A DNA stretch of 64,000 bases, taken from positions 496,001 to 560,000 of the forward strand of contig JANBVI010000064.1 in the NCBI GenBank assembly GCA_024239075.1, in the 5' to 3' direction. The DNA comes from Fischerella sp. CENA71. Its GTDB lineage: Bacteria > Cyanobacteriota > Cyanobacteriia > Cyanobacteriales > Nostocaceae. A model generated the notes under the pieces. That model did not search any database. It was not told where the DNA came from and was given only the letters and a program-made list of their open reading frames with translations. The position numbers and the translations under genes are program-made. Shown in pieces: positions 8,424-21,965 of the stretch (its first letter is position 1; every line of letters starts with the position of its first letter).

Positions 8424-9075
8424 TCCGAGTTTCTCAAGCAGTGAAAATTAAATCAGTGAACAGTATCAGCCGCAGTTATCAGGTGTATGGTGGGGAAACC
8501 GTTACCAAAAGAATAAAGTTTATAGCTGAAGCTGATAAATGATAACTGTTAAAAGTTACCAGTAACAGAGGAATTAATCTAAAAAGCGCAATAAATTGCT
8601 ACCTTAATCAAGCTTAACGTGTGAGCGAGGAATTCTGAAGGGAAGATTCTCAGACAATCCGGCTATTGTTTTTTCAACCTTGGAAAGTTCTGGTTTCAAC
8701 CTCGAAAGTTCTGGTTTCAACCTCGAAAGTTCTGGTTTCAACCCTGAAAGTTCTGGTTTCATCCTCGAAAGTTCTGGTTTTAACCCTGAAAGTTCTGGTT
8801 TTAACCCTGAAAGTTCTGGTTTCAACCCTGAAAGTTCTGGTTTCAACCTCGAAAGTTTTGGTTTCAACCCTGAAAGTTCTGGTTTCAACCCCGGAAATTC
8901 TCGTTTTCAACTTGGGAGATTAGATTACTGTAATGGCGTGTCAAGACCAAAATGTCGCAATAAATTTTGTAGGTTGGGTCTTGTAAATTCAACCCAACAT
9001 CATGAAGATAAGTTGGGTTGACATAAGGAAACCCAACCTAGTCTTAAATGATTTCGGAATGCTATAAATACTTGC
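8424..9075. other. 651-bp gap between terC and dedA-like genes
   Basis: The only clear content is the 21-bp tandem repeat at 8683-8913. Downstream of it, GTTGGGTTGACAT-like and AACCCAACCTA segments form a loose inverted pair (about 8972-9041: TAGGTTGGGT ... ACCCAACCTA). ORFs through the repeat on both strands are an effect of its period being divisible by three. Confidence 0.6.
8683..8913. repeat. 21-bp tandem repeat (minisatellite), 11 units
   Basis: Eleven consecutive units of consensus GAAAGTTCTGGTTTCAACCYY occur, plus a partial unit before 8683. Unit boundaries fall every 21 bp from 8683. Most differences lie at the last two bases (CT or TC), with a few T/C changes, and the last unit is the most diverged. 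Because 21 is a multiple of 3, several frames stay open: LKPELSG or TFRVETR heptads on the minus strand and SSGFNPE or KVLVSTL on the plus strand. I do not call any of these as a gene. Confidence 0.93.
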
Positions 9076-11273: not shown

Positions 11274-11572
11274 AATTGATTAAAGATTGTCTAAAAACCT
11301 AAATCGAATTGGGTTTTTTATTCAAGCATCTAGGGGAAGAGAGAAGTGTGATGAGTGTGGGGATCGGGGGACAAGGGGACACGGGGACAAGGGGGACACG
11401 GGGACACGGGGACACGGGGACACGGGGACACGGAGAATATTTTTTATTGGTTCACCGCGTCTTCCACTCTCAGCTCTACCTTGTTTCTTCCCAATCCCCA
11501 ATCCCCAATCCCCAATCCCCAATCCCCAATCCCCGATCCCCGATCCCCGATCCCCGATCCCCAATTTAAGTA
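11274..11572. repeat. Repeat-filled gap: GGGGACACG and ATCCCCA short tandem repeats
   Basis: From about 11366 to 11435 a GGGACACG/GGGACAAG unit repeats with period 7-8. From about 11490 to 11565 a CCCCAAT/CCCCGAT heptamer repeats about ten times. Overlapping ORFs (GTRGHGDT, SPIPNPQ) appear on both strands only because of the repeats. I see no gene here. Confidence 0.8.
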
Positions 11573-12376
11573 CTACGGTTGAACCAATGGTTGAATTGCT
11601 AATTCACCTAAGCCAATAGCAGCTAGTAAATCTCTCCACTGTGTTTGAAGTGTATTATTTTGAGGATTTGTTTGGCGCAGTTGTCCTAGTGTGGTGAGCG
11701 CATCGTACCAAAAGCCATTGTTGGCATAAATATTAACTTGTTGGGATTGTTGTGATTTTTGTAACTGTTGAACTAAAGTTTTGCTGGGATTTTTACGCAG
11801 AATGACTCCCTCTACATAAATAGGAGTTGATTGCTTTTGTGGGTAACAATAAACGTTGAAGAACCAACGATACTGTTTACCGACTTGCAGTGACGGAACA
11901 TTTTCGGGTATGGGGACTTTGATAATACCTGCTTTTGCTGGTAGAGCGATCGCAGTTTTATAAACTGAATCTTTGGTTGCATCGTCAAGCAAGACAAATT
12001 CAGCCGGATAACCAGAACTCTTGGTGTAGGGTAGATAAAACCATAACTGAGGATGTTCTTCTGTTGTGAATCCCCAAATATTTGTTACCGATGGCGGCTG
12101 CTCTGTTGAGGGAACCAAAGCAGTTAGGGGTGTTTCAACCTCTGGACAACTACCTCTTCTGGCTCCACCAAAGCGGCGACCTCCAGGAGGAGGACCAGGT
12201 GGCAAATTAGGTAAATCAACCTTAATAGTTCCACTTTTAGGAGGCTGAGGTGAAGTTGGTTGTGAGGGTTGAGTTGGCGTTGACTGCGCGACAACCAACG
12301 AAAAACTACTCAGTAAGTTGGTGCTACTGAGAGTTAACAGCAAAATAAGTTTAATTGGATCTAAATTGAACTTCAT
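11573..12376 (-). CDS. DUF928 domain protein, exported
   Basis: About 267 residues with an N-terminal signal-like hydrophobic segment (LILLLTLSSTNLLSSFSLVVAQ). A Pro-rich linker (TPTQPSQPTSPQPPKSG) precedes a DUF928-type domain that begins around the CPEVETPLTALVP motif and continues through TEEHPQLWFYLPYT and GKQYRWFFNVYCYP. The function is unknown; the family is common in cyanobacteria and tends to sit beside CHAT and CHASE2 proteins, as here. I start at ATG 12376, since the longer reading begins in CATTTGTC-type repeats. It is the last gene of the CHAT cluster, 139 bp after the CHASE2 gene. Confidence 0.82.
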   Translation of the reverse strand: MKFNLDPIKLILLLTLSSTNLLSSFSLVVAQSTPTQPSQPTSPQPPKSGTIKVDLPNLPPGPPPGGRRFGGARRGSCPEVETPLTALVPSTEQPPSVTNIWGFTTEEHPQLWFYLPYTKSSGYPAEFVLLDDATKDSVYKTAIALPAKAGIIKVPIPENVPSLQVGKQYRWFFNVYCYPQKQSTPIYVEGVILRKNPSKTLVQQLQKSQQSQQVNIYANNGFWYDALTTLGQLRQTNPQNNTLQTQWRDLLAAIGLGELAIQPLVQP

Positions 12377-12515
12377 AATGTGAGGATTGAGAAGAGGAAA
12401 AGAGACAAAGGGGAGAGGGGAGTGTGGAGAGTGTGGGAAGACAAGGGAGATAGGGAGAATAAGTAATGACAAATGACCATTGACTCTTGACAAATGACCA
12501 TTGACTCTTGACAAA

Positions 12516-14849
12516 TTATTTTGGCTCTTGATGAATTGCTGTTAAACCAGCTGTTCCTATGAGTGCTAAAGCTGATGGGACAAAAGGCACCCAGTAACCT
12601 TGGATAAATAAGCCAAAGCAAAAAATATAAAGAATTCCTGAGCCAATGACGATAAATATTAGCAAGCGTGTCAAAGAGTGACGCATTTGCCAAGCTAATA
12701 ATCCTCCTGCTACTGACCAAACCCAAATCCACATCACTTCAGCTAAGGAATTCCATGATCGCAGGAGTGGACGTCGGTCTAGAACAGCGCTGAGAATTTG
12801 ACTAACCATGTGAGCTTGTACTAATACTCCTGGCATTTGTTGGTCTAACTCAGTACTATAGGGTGTAGCCCAATAATCTGGAAAATCACCTTTAGCAGTT
12901 ACACCAATCAAGACTATTTTGTTCTTAATTGCGTTGGGGTTAATCGGAGCAGATAACAGTTGTGTCAATGTTACTTGTTCAGCAATTCGCTTTGAGGAAC
13001 GATAGTTGAGTAAAATTTGACCACCGTTAGTATCTATGCCTTGATAACCTCCTGTTCGTGGTTTTAAGAGTGGGAAACTAACATTACCAATTTGAAGATC
13101 ACCTCTGGTAGTAAACTTTGATCTAATTCCTTCAGTTTTTAAATAACGTAATGCGAGTTGTAAGCTGAGAGAAAAAGAAGTAGGACAAGGTGAAGTTGCT
13201 TCTGGGTTCATATACAACAAATGCCGACGCACTACACCATCAGCATCATAAACAAAGTCGCTAAAACCTAAACGGTGTTGGGGAAATTCTGGTGGTGGTT
13301 CAATGCCATTAGTATTGATTGTTGTATCGCTACCTTTGCAGACTCCAAATAAGTTGTCAGTTTGTTTGAGACGATTGAGTAATGTTGCTGACTCTGCTGG
13401 AAAATCACGGTAAATATCTAGACCTATAGCTCGCGGTTGATATTGTTGAAGTTTCTCCAAAACTTTATTGAGGGTTTGATCAGACACAGATGTTCCTTTC
13501 AAAGATTCGCCTCTGCGGCGTTGCGCTGCAATATCAGCATCACCAATGGTTACTAATAACAGGCGTGGATCGGGGTCTTCATTGATGAGAACGGAACGCG
13601 ATCGCATCATCAAATCATAGGCTTGTAAATCCCAATTTTGTAGGACTTCCAAAAATTTCAAGCTTGTAGGGATTGCAGTAATTAATATAGTATTAATTAA
13701 AAAATAAATAATTATACGTAATAAATTAGAAGAATTATAAGTTCGTTTAACAGGTTTGCTTGGAGTAATCCAGCCTGTGAACTCTTGCCAAGTGGGGGGT
13801 GATTCTGCCATATTCTGACAAATTACTGGTAGCCAAGTAGCACAAGGAAATTTATCTTCTAATCCTTGTAATCTTTCCCGTGCTTCTCGCACTGCTAAGT
13901 ATAAAGGTTCACCACCAGCAAAACTATCCAGAAAACCCTTTAAAAATTCTTGTGCAACTAAATCTGGAACAGGTTCGCGCATCACTATCATTTGGGGGAT
14001 GTGCAAATCAGCTAATTTTTCTCCCAATCCCAAACCATCACAGGAGTTGAAAATTGCTAGTTGTAAACCCCGTTCCACTGCTTTTTTTAAGGCATATTTT
14101 AATTCGTCAATTGTGAGACTATCAGTTTTATTTAAAAAAATCTTGCCGCTACAATTATTTCCTTGGCTAGAACTGTGTCCAGCGAAAAAGAGAATATCCC
14201 AGTTTTTTTGCCACAGATAATCATTTAATTCCTTACGCTGTGGTTCAACTAAAAAGCTGACTTCAGCTGCGGGTAATGCTTTGAGTAAAGCCGTATCTGC
14301 CTGAGTATCAATTCCCTGACTATTACCAATAATTGCTAAGATATTTACTTTTTTATTATGAGTTTTCTTGGCAGCAATACGCTCGTATTTTGGAGGTGCT
14401 ATGGCAATTTCCGCCTTGGGGTAGCGTTCAAGTACGTCCCAAAGATGCCAGGGTAAACGCTGCAAATCACGATTTTCTGTTTGTAAAATGACTCGTACTA
14501 TATCTGTAGGCAATAATCTTTCTAGCCATTTTTCACGCACCTGACGAAATTCCGCAGCGAGTAGCCAGGAATTAAGATGCGATCGCAATACATGAGCAGT
14601 TTTGTCACAGTCTTTGAGAATCGATACATTTGTGACTTGCACCTTCTCCGCAGATAGACGAAAACGACTACCTAATCTTGAATAGCTAGACTGCCACGCT
14701 TTATATTTATGTAATAATTCTGTTGCTGCTGGTAGCTTACCCGCAATTTCTGAAGAAGGTAACTCACCTTCTTCGCCAATTTGTAAGGTAACAGCAAATC
14801 CTTGCTCAAAACTACCGTCTGCAAATTTCAGAACTACTAACTTACCCAT
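12516..14849 (-). CDS. CHAT-CHASE2 membrane sensor/protease protein
   Basis: 777 residues. The N-terminal half is a CHAT (caspase-like) domain with the catalytic dyad apparently intact: His225 in FFAGHSSS and Cys270 in FNSCDGLGL. A first membrane segment near 380 (IIIYFLINTILITAIPTSL) leads into an extracytoplasmic CHASE2 domain (AYDLMMRSR, LLLVTIGDADI, RAIGLDIYRDFP, KIVLIGVTAKGDFPDYWATPY). Two or three C-terminal helices (about 705-770) follow. CHASE2 usually feeds kinases or cyclases, but here the likely output is the cytoplasmic CHAT protease. ATG 14849. It lies between the DUF1822 and DUF928 genes on the same strand. Confidence 0.88.
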   Translation of the reverse strand: MGKLVVLKFADGSFEQGFAVTLQIGEEGELPSSEIAGKLPAATELLHKYKAWQSSYSRLGSRFRLSAEKVQVTNVSILKDCDKTAHVLRSHLNSWLLAAEFRQVREKWLERLLPTDIVRVILQTENRDLQRLPWHLWDVLERYPKAEIAIAPPKYERIAAKKTHNKKVNILAIIGNSQGIDTQADTALLKALPAAEVSFLVEPQRKELNDYLWQKNWDILFFAGHSSSQGNNCSGKIFLNKTDSLTIDELKYALKKAVERGLQLAIFNSCDGLGLGEKLADLHIPQMIVMREPVPDLVAQEFLKGFLDSFAGGEPLYLAVREARERLQGLEDKFPCATWLPVICQNMAESPPTWQEFTGWITPSKPVKRTYNSSNLLRIIIYFLINTILITAIPTSLKFLEVLQNWDLQAYDLMMRSRSVLINEDPDPRLLLVTIGDADIAAQRRRGESLKGTSVSDQTLNKVLEKLQQYQPRAIGLDIYRDFPAESATLLNRLKQTDNLFGVCKGSDTTINTNGIEPPPEFPQHRLGFSDFVYDADGVVRRHLLYMNPEATSPCPTSFSLSLQLALRYLKTEGIRSKFTTRGDLQIGNVSFPLLKPRTGGYQGIDTNGGQILLNYRSSKRIAEQVTLTQLLSAPINPNAIKNKIVLIGVTAKGDFPDYWATPYSTELDQQMPGVLVQAHMVSQILSAVLDRRPLLRSWNSLAEVMWIWVWSVAGGLLAWQMRHSLTRLLIFIVIGSGILYIFCFGLFIQGYWVPFVPSALALIGTAGLTAIHQEPK

Positions 14850-15030
14850 AAATTAGAAAGTCATTCGATTTTGGATTTTGGATTACTCTGTCGAGAAGCC
14901 GCACTTTGTGCGTCTATGGATTTTGGATTGACTCCACTCATTAAATCTGCTGCTCTGTACCGTCAAAAAAGTATCGGTAACAGAAATTGAGACACCAAGA
15001 AAACGAGAACAAATGACAAATAACAAATAA

Positions 15031-15999
15031 CTAAATCACAAAATGTTCTTTCACACAGGCATCCTGTAATGCTACTTGAACAGTAAATTCTTCTTTGGGT
15101 TCTCCTGCAAATTTTAATTGCATATAATTGTCTGCATTTCTCGCTTGGGCTTCCAAAAATACTCCTCCAGATTTGTCTAAGACTGTAAGTTGAACTCCTG
15201 GTGTTAAGTAATTTTGATTGTTAGCAGGATAAAGTTGTACCAAAACGTTGGTTTGTTGATCAGCTTGGGGACTAATTTCTACAACTAACATGACAAGTTG
15301 GTTGGCAATCTGAATTCCTAAATCAATTAATTTTCCTCGTCTGACTACTGCTTCTGGCTGATCATTAGTTTGATCTTCAATCAAGTTGCCGCTTCTAAAT
15401 GCAAAAGCTGGCGACATTTCAGGTTGATTCCACAAGGATTCTATAGTTTGCCATCCTGCTTCAAATATACCTGTAAACCATTGACTCAAATTCACTAGTT
15501 CTGAACCTGGTGACTCAAAAGCAGGTGTTAGATGTTCGATTAATTCTTCTAGAGGTTTCAGTTCAGTTAAAGAAATCTCTTCGGTAGCGACACTAGGGAC
15601 AAATCCTAATAATTTTGCTTCTTGGAGAGATTCATCGATTTGCACAAACACGTAACCCACTCGTTCTTCCCATGTTTCAGGGGGGACATAAGCAATTTGT
15701 TGATCCGATAGGACAGGACGGCACTCTAAACGCCCAATTCCTGGTAATTCTAAATCAGCCACATCAGCACACAAACGCATAATCGGATTCCAACTGTCGC
15801 TAGCTGGCAAATCAGTAGGAAGACTCATCATTTGTAAATAATCATTAACTGCTAAGATACACAAAGTATTCAAACGGACTCGTTCCGCAGTCTGAGGATG
15901 TGGCAGTTGATTCGCAAATTGCTGGGCAGTAGTTAAGGCTGCCTTGGTGATGGGCAGTGTTAAAGCGATATCTTCAAGACGATAGGCTTGGTGTGACAT
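15031..15999 (-). CDS. DUF1822 family protein
   Basis: 322 residues matching the cyanobacterial DUF1822 family. Family features are the N-terminal ERVRLNTLCILAVNDYLQML-like segment, SWNPIMRLCADVADLELPG-GRLECRP, and PPETWEERVGYVFVQID. The C-terminus has a beta-rich part (VQLYPANNQNYLTPGVQLTV) and ends near ASLQDACV-type sequence. There is no signal peptide or membrane helix. The function is unknown; the family usually accompanies CHASE2/CHAT genes, as in this cluster. Confidence 0.85.
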   Translation of the reverse strand: MSHQAYRLEDIALTLPITKAALTTAQQFANQLPHPQTAERVRLNTLCILAVNDYLQMMSLPTDLPASDSWNPIMRLCADVADLELPGIGRLECRPVLSDQQIAYVPPETWEERVGYVFVQIDESLQEAKLLGFVPSVATEEISLTELKPLEELIEHLTPAFESPGSELVNLSQWFTGIFEAGWQTIESLWNQPEMSPAFAFRSGNLIEDQTNDQPEAVVRRGKLIDLGIQIANQLVMLVVEISPQADQQTNVLVQLYPANNQNYLTPGVQLTVLDKSGGVFLEAQARNADNYMQLKFAGEPKEEFTVQVALQDACVKEHFVI

Positions 16000-16120
16000 A
16001 GATCATTCCCCAAAGTTTAGTGCTGCTGTATATAGATCGCTCATAATTACAAAAATTACGCAAAAAAAATTGTCGCTGATTCAGGAATTAATTGTTAATG
16101 GTTTGTAGTTATTCATGTGT

Positions 16121-18679
16121 TTACAACCAATTGCCAATCAATACGTAAGCAGACCAAAAACTAGGAGCATTGTAATTGGGATGCTTGAGCAATTTTAGCT
16201 GGGCGCGACGCAAGGCTTCTGCTTTGCTAATCCTACTTTCTTTGAGTTCTCGATAAAAAGCACCAACAAACTGAGCCGTTGATTCGTCATCTATTTGCCA
16301 AAGAGAAGCGATCGTACTGCGTGCGCCAGCGCGTACAGCTGCGCCAGCTAAACCCAGAGCTGCACGTTTGTCTCCTGCTGCTGTCTGACAAGCACTTAAT
16401 ACTAATAGTTGTAGTGCTTCTGCTCTCGTATCATCTCGACTGCGTAGCAGCTTATCAAATTGAGTAACGTTAATTGGACCATCGGCAGCTAAGATAAATG
16501 TCTGATCAGCACGGGAACTAAATTGACCGTGGGTTGCTAAATGCACGACATTAAAAGGATTAGTATTAACTTTGTTTTCTAGTTCTCTACTGGTGAATTG
16601 CCGATCTAATAAGTTGGTTGTGGATATACCTGATTCGCTAATTAGCTCTATCTCTGTTTTGATTGCGGGTAAAGGTGCAAATTCTGAGTATGCTTGTGGT
16701 GGTTGAGTTAACCCTGCGGTTAAGGCTTGTAAACGCTGTCGCTGTAATGGTTTGGGATCAAAGATTTGCAAACCGACGCTCAAAGCTGTTGCGTATTTTT
16801 CGATCAAATATTGTTTTCCGTCATACAGAGAAGACATGGATAAATTACGCAATGCTCCATCAAGTACAAATACTAGGGTATTGACTCCGCTAGCTGATAA
16901 TTGCGATTCAATCGGTTTGATCAGCCAGTTGTAAACCTGCTGTGACTGGGTTCTTGTAGCTTTGATCGCCGCAGGATTCAAAAGATTTTGCCGCAATTGA
17001 GTAATTATTTGTTCGACTTCTGTTTGGGAAATTTGGGTGCTGTAGTTTTGTAAGGGTTGTTTGGGAATTTTGACAATTACCTGTAATTGATTGGGAAGAA
17101 TGATTGGGTATAAAATAGCAGCAGTAGGATTTTCTTTGTCTACAACTTGATCCAATAATATACGCTGACCTTCTAGACAAGCTTCCCGAAAAAAGTTATC
17201 TAATTCGGCTATTTGCAGGGCTTCAATTCGTTGGCGTACTTTTTCTAAAGTTTTTTCTTTTGGTTGTGTTTTTTGAGAATTTAACAGTAATTCTACTGAT
17301 TGCCGATATACTGGTTCGACACTGTCGCGAAAGCTGAATTGTACTTCTCGATTGACTGCTACCAAGTCATTACGAATTGATTCGAGGGTTTGGACTGCTG
17401 AATCATAGGCTGCGATCGCTCCTGGAATATCCCCTTGTAATTTCAGCAATCTACCTAACTGCCATTGCCATCTGTAAGCAATATCGGGTGCATTACTGCT
17501 CTGTGCTAAAAGTAACGCCTGTTCGGTTAAATTTTGTGCTTCAGACCACTGTCTAGTTTGTTCATACAAACTACCTAGACTTCCCAATGCATAAGCTAAG
17601 GAGCGTTGGTCGTTTAAACTACGGGCTTGTTGCACAGCTTTGGCGAGAATTTGAGCAATTTTAGATTGGTTCTCTACAGAATCTAAAATCAAAAGGCTTT
17701 GAGCAAAATTAATCTGAGCATAAACGCTGGCGCGACTGGGAGGAAGTTGGTCGAGTTGGGATTGAATTTGTGGTACTAAACTCAGAGCATCTGTTGGTTT
17801 TTGCTCTTCAATTAGTAAACTCAAAAGATTAAGTTGGGCTTGGACTTTTAACAGAGGTGAGGGAGATTGTTTAACTGTTTGTTGATAAAAATCAATGGCT
17901 TGCTGTGTTTCCTGGCGATCGCGAGCATTATTGCCTAAACTGAAAAGACTCGCAGCAATATAATTAGGTGATTGCAAACGCTTGGCTACTGCTAAACTTT
18001 CTTCGAGAAATTTGTGAGATTCTGGGAATTTGCCCACTAATTGTAGAACATCGCCTAGCGATCGCAACATTACTGTTTTTTCTGGTGAGTCACTTTGCGA
18101 TCGCAATGTCTGTTTTACTTGTAATAGTGTTGCTTCTGCCCGACGGTAAAATCCACTAGAGATTAATGCTTGAGCTTGATTAATCTGCGATCTTACTACG
18201 CCATTTTGATCATTTATTTGAGTATAAATCTTTGCTGCCTGTTGCCAAGTTTTCAAGGCTTCCTCTGGTTGTCCAATGGCAAGTTGCAGACGACCTTGAA
18301 TATCGAGAGTTTGAGCTAATATTTTGGGATCATCTGTACTATTGAGGAGATTTAGACTTTCTGTAATTGCTTGCTTGGCTTCATTCCACGCACCAAGTTG
18401 TTGATAAGCCAGAGAAAGATTACTCAAAGTCACAGCAAGTTTTTTTGTCTCTCCCTGCTGACGATAATTTTGGGCTGCTTGCTGCAATACTTGTACTGCT
18501 TGTGCAAACTGTCCGTTATCGTAGAGTGCTTTCCCTTGTTGTAAAACAGCAGAGATTGTGGGGGAATTAGAAGCAGTAGGGTTAGAAATTTTTGCTAAAA
18601 CTGGTGAATTACTCAAGCAAAGTAAGGTAGTTACCAGTATGAGTGCTAAGAAGCGAGATGTCTTCTTTTTTGATGTCAT
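16121..18679 (-). CDS. TPR-CHAT protein (caspase-like protease with tetratricopeptide repeats)
   Basis: 852 residues. An N-terminal signal-like segment (FLALILVTTLLCLSNSPVLA) suggests export or membrane anchoring. It is followed by about ten TPR units from residue 45 to 430 (for example LSNLSLAYQQLGAWNEAKQA and SLGSLYEQTRQWSEAQNLTE). A CHAT domain fills the C-terminal 350 residues, with the putative dyad His717 (HLATHGQF) and Cys764 (LSACQTAAG). The layout resembles TPR-CHAT proteins. It is the first gene of a same-strand run (TPR-CHAT, DUF1822, CHAT-CHASE2, DUF928). The natural substrate is unknown. Confidence 0.9.
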   Translation of the reverse strand: MTSKKKTSRFLALILVTTLLCLSNSPVLAKISNPTASNSPTISAVLQQGKALYDNGQFAQAVQVLQQAAQNYRQQGETKKLAVTLSNLSLAYQQLGAWNEAKQAITESLNLLNSTDDPKILAQTLDIQGRLQLAIGQPEEALKTWQQAAKIYTQINDQNGVVRSQINQAQALISSGFYRRAEATLLQVKQTLRSQSDSPEKTVMLRSLGDVLQLVGKFPESHKFLEESLAVAKRLQSPNYIAASLFSLGNNARDRQETQQAIDFYQQTVKQSPSPLLKVQAQLNLLSLLIEEQKPTDALSLVPQIQSQLDQLPPSRASVYAQINFAQSLLILDSVENQSKIAQILAKAVQQARSLNDQRSLAYALGSLGSLYEQTRQWSEAQNLTEQALLLAQSSNAPDIAYRWQWQLGRLLKLQGDIPGAIAAYDSAVQTLESIRNDLVAVNREVQFSFRDSVEPVYRQSVELLLNSQKTQPKEKTLEKVRQRIEALQIAELDNFFREACLEGQRILLDQVVDKENPTAAILYPIILPNQLQVIVKIPKQPLQNYSTQISQTEVEQIITQLRQNLLNPAAIKATRTQSQQVYNWLIKPIESQLSASGVNTLVFVLDGALRNLSMSSLYDGKQYLIEKYATALSVGLQIFDPKPLQRQRLQALTAGLTQPPQAYSEFAPLPAIKTEIELISESGISTTNLLDRQFTSRELENKVNTNPFNVVHLATHGQFSSRADQTFILAADGPINVTQFDKLLRSRDDTRAEALQLLVLSACQTAAGDKRAALGLAGAAVRAGARSTIASLWQIDDESTAQFVGAFYRELKESRISKAEALRRAQLKLLKHPNYNAPSFWSAYVLIGNWL

Positions 18680-18873: not shown

Positions 18874-20508
18874 TCAACCCCGATCCCCAATCCCCGATTT
18901 CCCATTTCCATTAAATTCTTTAGTCAAGCGTAACAAAGCTTGTTCTAATTCTGATGAAAGTTTGATGGGTAAGTCGCCGGTACGCATATTTAAGTCTCTT
19001 TGCGGGAAGGGAACTTCTATGTTGTGTTTTCGCAAAGAGGCTTCGATGAGAAAATATATATCACTTTTGATCGGTGTTTGTTGGTGGGGTTTGTCAATCC
19101 ATACTAGGAGTTCAAAATCTATGGCGCTTTCGCCAAAACCTTTGAAAAATACTTGGGGTTGGGGTAGTTTTAAAACTTCTGGGTGATGTACAGCAGCTTC
19201 AACGAGTGCTGTTTTTACCAAGTTTACGTCTGAACCGTAGGCAACACCTACTGGTAAATGAATCCGAGAAACAGGGTTGCGATGGCTCCAGTTAATGACT
19301 TCAGTCTCTAGAAATCGAGAGTTAGGGACGATAATTGAAATTCGGTCTAGTGTGCGAATTACTACACTTCGCGCCCCTATGTATTCTACTGTCCCCATGT
19401 ATTCACCCACTTCGATGAAATCGCCTACTTGGATGGGACGTTCAAATAGTAATACAATTCCACTACCAAAGTTTTTAGCAATGTCTTGGAAGCCAAAACC
19501 AATTCCCACACCCAAGGCACTAGCTACAATTGTCAGAGAACTAAGGTCTAGTCCCCAGATTTGTAGCAAAACAATTGTACCAAAACTAATAAATGCATAC
19601 TTGCAAATAATGGCGATCGCTTCTTGTGCTCCTCTGCTGATTCGCATCCGGCTTAAAATGCGAGAGCGTAGCAAGTTTGTTGCTGCACCTGCACAAATTA
19701 TCAGCCCCAAGAGCAAAATAATCAAAATTAAAATGTTGGTCAGAGAATAGGACTTTTGTCCTAAGGAAAAAATTGGAGAGGTCAGGCTAGCAAATATCCT
19801 GGTCGCGATATCATAGCTTAAGTTGCGGGTGAGAGGAAAGAGATTAGTAATATAGAGAACTACCCCTACCCAAAGTCCTATCCGTGCTAACAGCAGTGTT
19901 GCTTTAAACAGGAATCTTGATGTATTTTGGATTTGGTTATCGCCAGAGGAATCAGCCGAAACTAGCATTTGTGAGAGGCGGTTTTGGGTGAGTTGCCATA
20001 CAATTCCTAATAACCGATGTAATCCAATCGCCATCAACACAATCACAACACTCAGAATTGATGTATTGCGAATAAAACTGACACCTCTCTCGCTATGAGC
20101 TTTTTGGATTGCCTCCTCAATTTTTTGAACCCAGATCCTAGCTTGTTCTTCGGGAGTACCAGCAGAATCTATATCGTTCTGGGTGACGGTCAACAAGTAG
20201 CGACCATTAACTACGATAATTGGAGAATCGTTGCGTTGTTCAATTTTGATATCAGGCGCTTCATCGGATTTAACAACTGCTTGTAATTGGGAACTAATGA
20301 ATTTTGCTCGTTCTTGAGCTTTCGATTGTTCATTACTGCTGACTCTAAAAACTAACCGGCCATCTACAACAACAGGTGCATAGTTTACTGGTTGAGATTG
20401 TGCTTGTACAGGTGCTAACAGCAAACTGATCAACAATACCAATACAATCAGAGTTGTCTGAATAAGTTGGGAGTACCGAGTGTGAGGGAACTTACGATTT
20501 TTTCTCAT
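18874..20508 (-). CDS. Mechanosensitive ion channel, MscS family
   Basis: 544 residues. A signal peptide (LIVLVLLISLLLAPVQAQ) is followed by a periplasmic domain. Five hydrophobic segments come next, ending in the pore-lining TM3 region (IVASALGVGIGFGFQDIAKNFGSGIVLLFERP). The MscS beta domain (QVGDFIEVGEYMGTVEYIGARSVVIRTLDR) and C-terminal domain follow. It should release solutes on hypo-osmotic shock. The last residues (GNGKSGIGDRG) are read from CCCCGATCCCC-type repeat DNA, so the native end appears to have been replaced. It lies upstream of the CHAT cluster on the same strand, separated by 194 bp. Confidence 0.9.
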   Translation of the reverse strand: MRKNRKFPHTRYSQLIQTTLIVLVLLISLLLAPVQAQSQPVNYAPVVVDGRLVFRVSSNEQSKAQERAKFISSQLQAVVKSDEAPDIKIEQRNDSPIIVVNGRYLLTVTQNDIDSAGTPEEQARIWVQKIEEAIQKAHSERGVSFIRNTSILSVVIVLMAIGLHRLLGIVWQLTQNRLSQMLVSADSSGDNQIQNTSRFLFKATLLLARIGLWVGVVLYITNLFPLTRNLSYDIATRIFASLTSPIFSLGQKSYSLTNILILIILLLGLIICAGAATNLLRSRILSRMRISRGAQEAIAIICKYAFISFGTIVLLQIWGLDLSSLTIVASALGVGIGFGFQDIAKNFGSGIVLLFERPIQVGDFIEVGEYMGTVEYIGARSVVIRTLDRISIIVPNSRFLETEVINWSHRNPVSRIHLPVGVAYGSDVNLVKTALVEAAVHHPEVLKLPQPQVFFKGFGESAIDFELLVWIDKPHQQTPIKSDIYFLIEASLRKHNIEVPFPQRDLNMRTGDLPIKLSSELEQALLRLTKEFNGNGKSGIGDRG

Positions 20509-21482: not shown

Positions 21483-21722
21483 AAAGTCCAAAAAAATAAG
21501 AGTAATTTTTATTTAAGAAATGTAAATTATTTAATCCTTTACTACAACATTCTTTTAGCCTTGGAAGAGTAAGAACGTTCTTGCAGGCCGCTCATATTTT
21601 ATCGTTTGAAATTTGAGCGACAGTAAAGATGATAAAGGTTTCAAATTAGACGATCCGAATCTATTTCTGAGATCATCAGTAGCGTTTGTAGTAGGTGATG
21701 AATGAAATGGAGGAAACTAGTT

Positions 21723-21965
21723 ATGCCCTATCAACTTACCAATCTTGATTTGCTCAAAGATCTGGATAAAAATCAGTCACTGACAGATGTGTCTGTAGAG
21801 GGACAGCACCATCTATTTGGTGGTCACTGGGGTGGTAAGTGGCATGATCATCATAAGTGGGATCATCATGACAACTGGCATGATCATCATGACAACTGGG
21901 ATCATCATGACAACTGGGATCATCATGACAAGTGGGATCACCATGACAAGTGGAATCATCACTAG
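21723..21965 (+). CDS. Small His/Trp/Asp-repeat protein, possibly a leader-type precursor peptide
   Basis: 80 residues. I choose the ATG at 21723 because GGAGG (21709-21713) lies 9 bp upstream; an in-frame ATG at 21702 would add seven residues. The N-terminal 30 residues (MPYQLTNLDLLKDLDK) look like an acidic helical leader. A Gly-Gly pair (LFGGHWGG, 31-38) follows. From residue 41 on the protein is made of DHHDNW/DHHDKW hexapeptides encoded by an 18-bp repeat, about seven units. The C-terminus should bind metal ions such as Ni, Cu or Zn. A 12-bp hairpin at 22022-22060 ends the gene. No maturation or export gene is adjacent. Confidence 0.65.
   Translation: MPYQLTNLDLLKDLDKNQSLTDVSVEGQHHLFGGHWGGKWHDHHKWDHHDNWHDHHDNWDHHDNWDHHDKWDHHDKWNHH

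Follow-up and report, generated by a model that had tools for sequence, protein, structure and literature searches.

The window analyzed here, a 64,000-nucleotide stretch of the Fischerella sp. CENA71 genome (contig JANBVI010000064.1, positions 496,001 to 560,000), carries a cluster of four genes encoding two caspase-like CHAT proteins, one of them with a CHASE2 sensor domain, together with members of the DUF1822 and DUF928 families. A first-pass annotation had placed these genes side by side on one strand, and this was borne out: all four open reading frames (ORFs) were confirmed on the minus strand, the DUF928 frame as listed spanning 11573-12514 and the others as in Table 1, and the Pfam matches for DUF928, CHASE2, CHAT, and DUF1822 all lay far above their cut-offs. 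Genome-wide, there were 27 matches for CHAT, 8 for DUF1822 (two being pieces of one gene), 5 for DUF928, and 6 for CHASE2. As CHAT alone is so common in this genome, it is the combination of genes that needs explaining. The cluster is not accidental. The gene set was kept across cyanobacteria, as had been expected of it, but the four genes proved to be two separable modules, which join in the CHAT-CHASE2 protein.

Table 1. Genes and domains of the cluster, in window coordinates
Feature	Coordinates	Strand	Description	Basis
DUF928 gene	11573..12376	-	Exported Ig-like plus TPR-like protein, proposed periplasmic CHASE2 partner; start taken as the Met that yields a signal peptide	Pfam PF06051, 217 bits
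EACC2-type CHAT plus CHASE2 transmembrane protein	12516..14849	-	777 aa	Pfam (CHASE2 226 bits, CHAT 53 bits); transmembrane segments
CHASE2 sensor domain	12699..13664	-	aa 396-717, predicted periplasmic	Pfam; lies between the first transmembrane segment and the C-terminal transmembrane cluster
Constant N-terminal module (EACC2-type region plus CHAT)	13740..14849	-	Predicted cytoplasmic; dyad H225/C270	Alignment of 69; signal-like N-terminus in 0/156
DUF1822 gene	15031..15999	-	Soluble; proposed sigma-binding, protease-controlled partner	Pfam, 288 bits; linkage to EACC2-CHAT
TPR-CHAT gene	16121..18679	-	Probably exported; dyad H717/C764	Pfam (CHAT 189 bits, and TPR); signal-like N-terminus

Both CHAT proteins retain the His/Cys dyads first read from the sequence, and no loss was seen in homologues: H225/C270 was invariant in 69 of 69 aligned EACC2-CHAT domains, and H717/C764 in 38 of 38 aligned TPR-CHAT domains. 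We call the former domain EACC2-type on the grounds of its architecture and neighbourhood, which suggest this assignment. Signal-like N-termini and transmembrane (TM) segments were called with a simple hydropathy rule of our own making. In the 777-residue protein, this gave TM segments at 376-394, 729-747, and 754-772, with a weaker one read near 702-722, a pattern which predicts CHAT inside and CHASE2 outside the cell, as the first-pass annotation had it; the number of segments varies among relatives, mostly from 2 to 4. Signal-like N-termini were found in 52 of 71 TPR-CHAT and 127 of 153 DUF928 proteins, in 1 of 79 of the sigma factors described below, and in none of 130 DUF1822 or 156 EACC2-CHAT proteins. 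The TPR-CHAT protein is therefore probably exported and no second cytoplasmic protease, a point on which the first-pass interpretation is not supported; most likely, the inner membrane separates the sites where the two enzymes act. Export of DUF928 was also upheld, given a start at the Met at 12376, most likely the true one, which yields a signal peptide. The upstream TTG extension of its ORF begins inside a 21-bp tandem repeat (12467-12516) that sits just past the CHAT-CHASE2 stop and is read as the N-terminus of that ORF. Two cysteines, the only ones in the window copy of DUF928, were kept in 45 of 45 aligned copies, consistent with a disulphide outside the cytoplasm.

The inner module, comprising a sigma factor, DUF1822, and the EACC2-type CHAT protein, is already known in outline. 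Kaur et al. 2021 (eLife, PMC8195603) described EACC2-caspase neighbourhoods with DUF1822 and, in the majority, an extracytoplasmic function (ECF) sigma factor, and had themselves suggested that sensing, activation of the peptidase, and a step at the level of transcription are involved. In the Fischerella genome, DUF1822 precedes CHAT proteins that share an N-terminal module of ~370 residues, the part after it varying between CHASE2, nSTAND-WD40, periplasmic-binding, and unassigned sequence. Genes of one family precede DUF1822 at four loci of this genome (L001, L002, L006, and L007); NCBIfam matched the first three weakly to ECF sigma factors and did not match the L007 protein. Since single members reach TIGR02937 below its cut-off or not at all, we regard them as distant ECF relatives; against the PDB, a profile of 40 such proteins picked up the ECF factors RpoE (E value of 0.0011) and SigK (0.0034). 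Among the loci gathered, EACC2-CHAT lay within 2 kb after DUF1822 in 120 of 134, and a same-strand sigma gene lay within 1.5 kb upstream of DUF1822 in 76 of 125, with 42 of the 49 misses falling in the window's own clade. DUF1822 and the sigma also co-vary, both in partial distance correlation (0.81, n = 40) and in length, long going with long (24/25 vs 5/43); the partial correlation of CHAT with DUF1822 was 0.40 at n = 85, second to that of CHASE2 with DUF928. A structure model of DUF1822 showed two domains, one alpha+beta and one Ig-like, with a low-confidence linker at 193-215; the Pfam scan found no TPR family in DUF1822, and fold search barely probed the N-terminal part of the model. From linkage and co-variation, we infer that DUF1822 may be an anti-sigma factor.

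Variants of this module were also seen. A sigma-like domain forms the C-terminus of two proteins encoded upstream of DUF1822 and CHAT-CHASE2 (L195:130-2706 and L198:6400-8976), and in the L195 copy there are also NACHT and HEAT parts, which give the sigma of the system an inbuilt STAND-type switch. In L084:9358-12153 and L103:7499-10576, the EACC2-CHAT module is C-terminal rather than N-terminal.

For the envelope module, loci were picked from matches in 40 genomes to cover three classes of gene (CHAT-CHASE2, EACC2-CHAT lacking CHASE2, and CHASE2 lacking CHAT), plus 80 named loci that were the best 80 of 569 relatives, all cyanobacterial by title. All were thus found through CHAT or CHASE2; the 178 genes gave 175 non-redundant ones, of which we kept the 146 with 3 kb on both sides and dropped the rest. 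DUF928 lay within 6 kb of 91 of the 92 CHAT-CHASE2 genes (the exception being L155), compared with 1 of 29 other EACC2-CHAT genes and 8 of 25 CHASE2-only genes, and the single other EACC2-CHAT case (L126) has CHAT and CHASE2 in adjacent frames. Within 8 kb, TPR-CHAT accompanied 41/92, 3/29, and 7/25 of these classes, respectively, and two-partner secretion (TPS) genes 22/92, 0/29, and 5/25. Transporters of the ShlB/FhaC type lie near TPR-CHAT in L078:3191-5101, L217:11175-12941, L075:10975-12768, and L115:3310-5193, with TPS on the map or nearby in three of the four, so TPS genes go with the envelope arm.

The converse search, starting from DUF928, found the family in 14 of 59 genomes of the phylum, with 72 matches, 5 of them in the window's genome. 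From the other 67 we took 39 regions by descending score, leaving out neighbours inside regions already taken, earlier copies, one copy at an edge, one from the same genus, and weaker matches. Within 6 kb of these 39 genes were CHASE2 in 29, CHAT-CHASE2 in 8, TPR-CHAT in 17, and TPS in 13. At this genome's gene densities, chance would place CHASE2 near DUF928 in ~1.2% of cases and TPR-CHAT in ~2.2%, against the 74% and 44% observed. CHASE2-DUF928 was the strongest pair by partial correlation at n = 85 (0.67), and reached 0.70 at n = 40. On plasmids, DUF928 occurred in 14 records and CHASE2 in 30; among the matches listed, 10 of 10 DUF928 records also had CHASE2, less than 1 kb away in 7.

The DUF928 gene also adjoins the CHASE2-coding end of its partner. 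Where CHASE2 is C-terminal, DUF928 was downstream in 110 cases and upstream in none; where it is N-terminal, DUF928 was upstream in 15 and downstream in 4. With CHAT proteins excluded, the upstream/downstream counts were 15/4 for N-terminal and 0/4 for C-terminal CHASE2 (Fisher 0.008). A same-strand DUF928 within 1.5 kb was missing at 11 of 117 CHAT-CHASE2 genes and 24 of 47 other CHASE2 genes, short flanks included. Of ten DUF928-linked CHASE2 proteins scanned with Pfam, four have a nucleotide cyclase output, four a hybrid histidine kinase, one GGDEF-EAL, and one a Ser/Thr kinase. On a Kovacikia plasmid, the genes for a multi-TIR-CHASE2 protein (L261:3140-7185) and a DUF928 protein stand side by side in divergent orientation, which adds one more output to this sensor pair. 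Collectively, these data point to DUF928, an uncharacterised secreted family, as a regular partner of CHASE2 sensors.

The DUF928 model (mean pLDDT of 84.9) and fold searches indicated an Ig-like domain followed by TPR-like helices. The top fold match was MtxA (PDB 4z29), at about 15% identity over the match, and no sequence match between the two was found at E <= 5. MtxA is an exported protein of magnetotactic bacteria whose gene is followed by a CHASE2-cyclase gene (PMC4439547). It thus shares with DUF928 a signal peptide, an Ig-like then TPR-like arrangement, and a CHASE2 gene neighbour, and differs in coming from other bacteria and in having an extra N-terminal region. The MtxA paper makes no mention of DUF928. 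Kaur et al. (PMC5587647) had noted CHASE2 and DUF928 together in a single cluster of Nostoc punctiforme; our search of the open-licence literature found neither this pairing stated as a rule nor the link from DUF928 to MtxA. Outside cyanobacteria, a LysM-FecR protein of Paraburkholderia is encoded directly before a CHASE2 histidine kinase (L259:3454-7292) and is a possible counterpart of DUF928.

No ECF sigma gene lies beside the window operon. In a tree of CHAT-CHASE2 proteins, the window falls in a clade of 44 (support 0.994), and 0 of these 44 loci, four of them under 9 kb long, has a same-strand sigma directly before DUF1822. The order sigma, TPR-CHAT, DUF1822, CHAT-CHASE2, DUF928 is seen at four of them, L054 (the same locus as L144), L055, L131, and L133; the window order is the same minus the sigma, and TPR-CHAT occupies the position of the sigma gene in related operons outside this clade. 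One further sigma of this family is encoded on another contig of the genome, C74 (L207:5280-5933). It is 95% identical to a copy in a congener and 64-66% identical to the operon sigmas of those four loci, its nearest relatives outside the genus in a first comparison; a later search gave closer ones, up to 73%, located away from the operon. We then scored 40 genomes for window-type CHAT-CHASE2 (at least 58% identity) and a matching sigma (at least 60% identity), both thresholds being our own and one genome (G022) being counted as a carrier although its match is split into two pieces (68% and 54%). The matching sigma was present in 19 of 20 genomes with the window-type protein and in 0 of 20 without it (Fisher 3e-10), and within the same family in 18 of 19 and 0 of 5, relatedness inflating such p values. 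Of 23 genomes covered, 22 carry the matching sigma; it is still in the operon in three (G018, G006, and G034), and in four (G013, G015, G055, and G077) it sits on the same strand some 5-20 kb upstream. The C74 protein is the likely cognate sigma of the window operon, most likely acting in trans.

We propose, with a probability of about 0.5, that these genes specify a caspase-like signalling receptor spanning the envelope and that DUF1822 holds a sigma factor. On the outer side of the inner membrane, CHASE2 and exported DUF928, which may bind each other, would sense the envelope together, and the exported TPR-CHAT, elsewhere often found with a two-partner secretion pair, would belong to this envelope arm. 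The signal would pass the membrane and switch the cytoplasmic EACC2-type CHAT protease, which would cut or alter DUF1822, its putative substrate; cleavage would free the ECF-like sigma and change transcription. In the window's lineage this sigma, outside the operon, most likely acts in trans from the other contig. The step from DUF1822 to sigma is proposed because the two are linked, correlate in distance, pair in length, and still occur together where the operon has broken up; a continued role of the distant sigma in this system, and the nature of the signal, we infer.

Several observations weigh against this proposal. TPR-CHAT lies near fewer than half of the CHAT-CHASE2 genes, the 41 of 92 given above, and 17 of 25 CHASE2-only genes have no DUF928 within 6 kb, including two kinase-CHASE2 genes of this genome (L010 and L011). 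At 6 of the 39 sampled DUF928 genes, CHASE2, TPR-CHAT, and TPS were all missing within 6 kb. Genome G001 carries the window-type protein but no matching sigma, and the window clade keeps DUF1822 without an adjacent sigma, so another role for DUF1822 is possible. A DUF1822 profile searched against PDB sequences matched no anti-sigma factor and no Csx30. Finally, related loci cannot be counted as independent events.

Caspase-like proteins that carry CHASE2 have been published before. The EACC2-caspase systems (PMC8195603) share with the window a constant N-terminal module with a caspase-like domain, a variable C-terminus that may be CHASE2, and linked DUF1822. Section 9 of that paper, however, has no DUF928, exported TPR-CHAT, or TPS, whereas here DUF928 tracks the CHASE2 versions; DUF1822 is labelled TPR there and is modelled here as alpha+beta plus Ig-like, and the sigma has left the window operon. 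A Trichodesmium metacaspase-CHASE2 protein (PMC2853523, PMC3501461) was proposed in 2012 to have its receptor outside and protease inside, and shares the N-terminal caspase-like domain and C-terminal CHASE2, with one TM segment before and three after CHASE2. It is a metacaspase (peptidase C14) rather than a CHAT protein, and the PMC3501461 text mentions neither DUF1822 nor DUF928. No paper combining CHASE2, the CHAT domain, and cyanobacteria was found in the open-licence literature search. In type III-E CRISPR systems, Csx30 binds CASP-sigma and inhibits it, and Csx29 is the protease that cleaves Csx30 (PMC10028731). The likeness lies in a CHAT protease, an intermediate protein, and an ECF sigma encoded together, with proteolysis relieving the sigma (as proposed here); control there is by RNA-guided Cas7-11, whereas the protease here would be a membrane receptor. 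No sequence link between DUF1822 and Csx30 was found, and we rejected membership of the window in type III-E (Craspase), as its TPR-CHAT has a signal-like N-terminus and Cas7-11 was not among the ten neighbouring proteins scanned. The DegS/RseA pathway follows a logic of envelope signal, protease, anti-sigma, and ECF sigma, though in our proposal the protease is caspase-like and cytoplasm-facing and the putative anti-sigma soluble. DegS/RseA is also named as a parallel in PMC10028731.

The cluster might instead be a suicide or phage-defence module, as the first-pass annotation had suggested, in which an envelope attack or death ligand leads CHAT to cleave host proteins and kill the cell, the sigma serving self-regulation only. 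A 2020 review (PMC7475262) proposes caspase homologues with CHASE2, ANF, or WD40 as cyanobacterial death-ligand receptors, caspase-like effectors are frequent in conflict systems (PMC8195603), and the NACHT-HEAT-sigma fusion (L195/L198) and plasmid TIR-CHASE2 protein would fit. PADLOC, however, matched the gene set only through generic TPR and a weak BovA hit, both on TPR-CHAT; among the matches listed, each genome has a single window-type copy, whose setting is conserved, and cyclases and kinases, too, use the CHASE2-DUF928 pair. The recurrent inner partner, moreover, is an ECF-like sigma, which argues for a transcriptional response rather than death or defence, and we consider this suggestion unsupported and the module unlikely. 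We likewise doubt that the cluster is a quality control for adhesion or secretion, in which exported TPR-CHAT matures a two-partner secreted exoprotein while CHASE2-DUF928 monitors the process. The enrichment of TPS near CHAT-CHASE2 and DUF928, and the identity of 4 of 4 scanned neighbours as ShlB/POTRA transporters, would suit it, yet a scan of ten neighbouring proteins in the window showed no TPS gene, and 40 of 92 CHAT-CHASE2 genes have neither TPS nor TPR-CHAT within 8 kb.

Less probable again is a HetF-like regulator of cell division or differentiation, with an envelope-anchored CHAT-CHASE2 cleaving a regulator and DUF1822 as an adaptor rather than an anti-sigma. HetF cleaves PatU3 (PMC12288457), and this genome's HetF orthologue has one hydrophobic segment and a CHAT domain with the same dyad motifs, which matches the EACC2-CHAT profile at 50.8 bits with its dyad in register. 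That orthologue (1386.6 bits against the HetF family model NF045509) has no CHASE2 match, though, and its contig, C76, has no DUF1822 or DUF928 match, while the window protein scores 27.4 bits, far under the cut-off of 1200. That the four genes are chance neighbours is scarcely credible, and is already refuted for DUF1822, CHAT-CHASE2, and DUF928: the 27 CHAT matches make CHAT neighbours common in absolute terms, but gene order is kept across genomes and the DUF928 neighbourhood frequencies far exceed those expected.

Elsewhere in the window, an MscS-type channel gene (18874-20508) lies upstream of TPR-CHAT and keeps that position in loci L044-L047 of the same genus, the L047 copy being truncated where the locus ends. 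Besides the repeat at 12467-12516, intergenic short tandem repeats occur at 8672-8911 (21-bp unit), 11367-11433 (8), and 11490-11565 (7), and a small ORF (21702-21965) encodes a His/Asp/Trp-rich repeat with an 18-bp unit.

Returning to the trans-envelope receptor, we tentatively extend it: DUF928 and MtxA may be general periplasmic co-receptors of CHASE2, and proteolysis of DUF1822 by the window receptor may free an ECF-like sigma encoded in trans, so that a caspase relative would drive an envelope cascade of sigma and anti-sigma. The CHASE2 sensor domain is widespread, and to our knowledge its signal and extracellular partners are poorly known. A conserved exported partner beside CHASE2 proteins of several outputs, matched in fold to a protein that neighbours CHASE2 in another phylum, makes the question of CHASE2 partners testable. 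DUF928 and DUF1822 gain concrete, testable roles, and the cluster suggests that sigma release by a caspase-like enzyme may extend beyond CRISPR.

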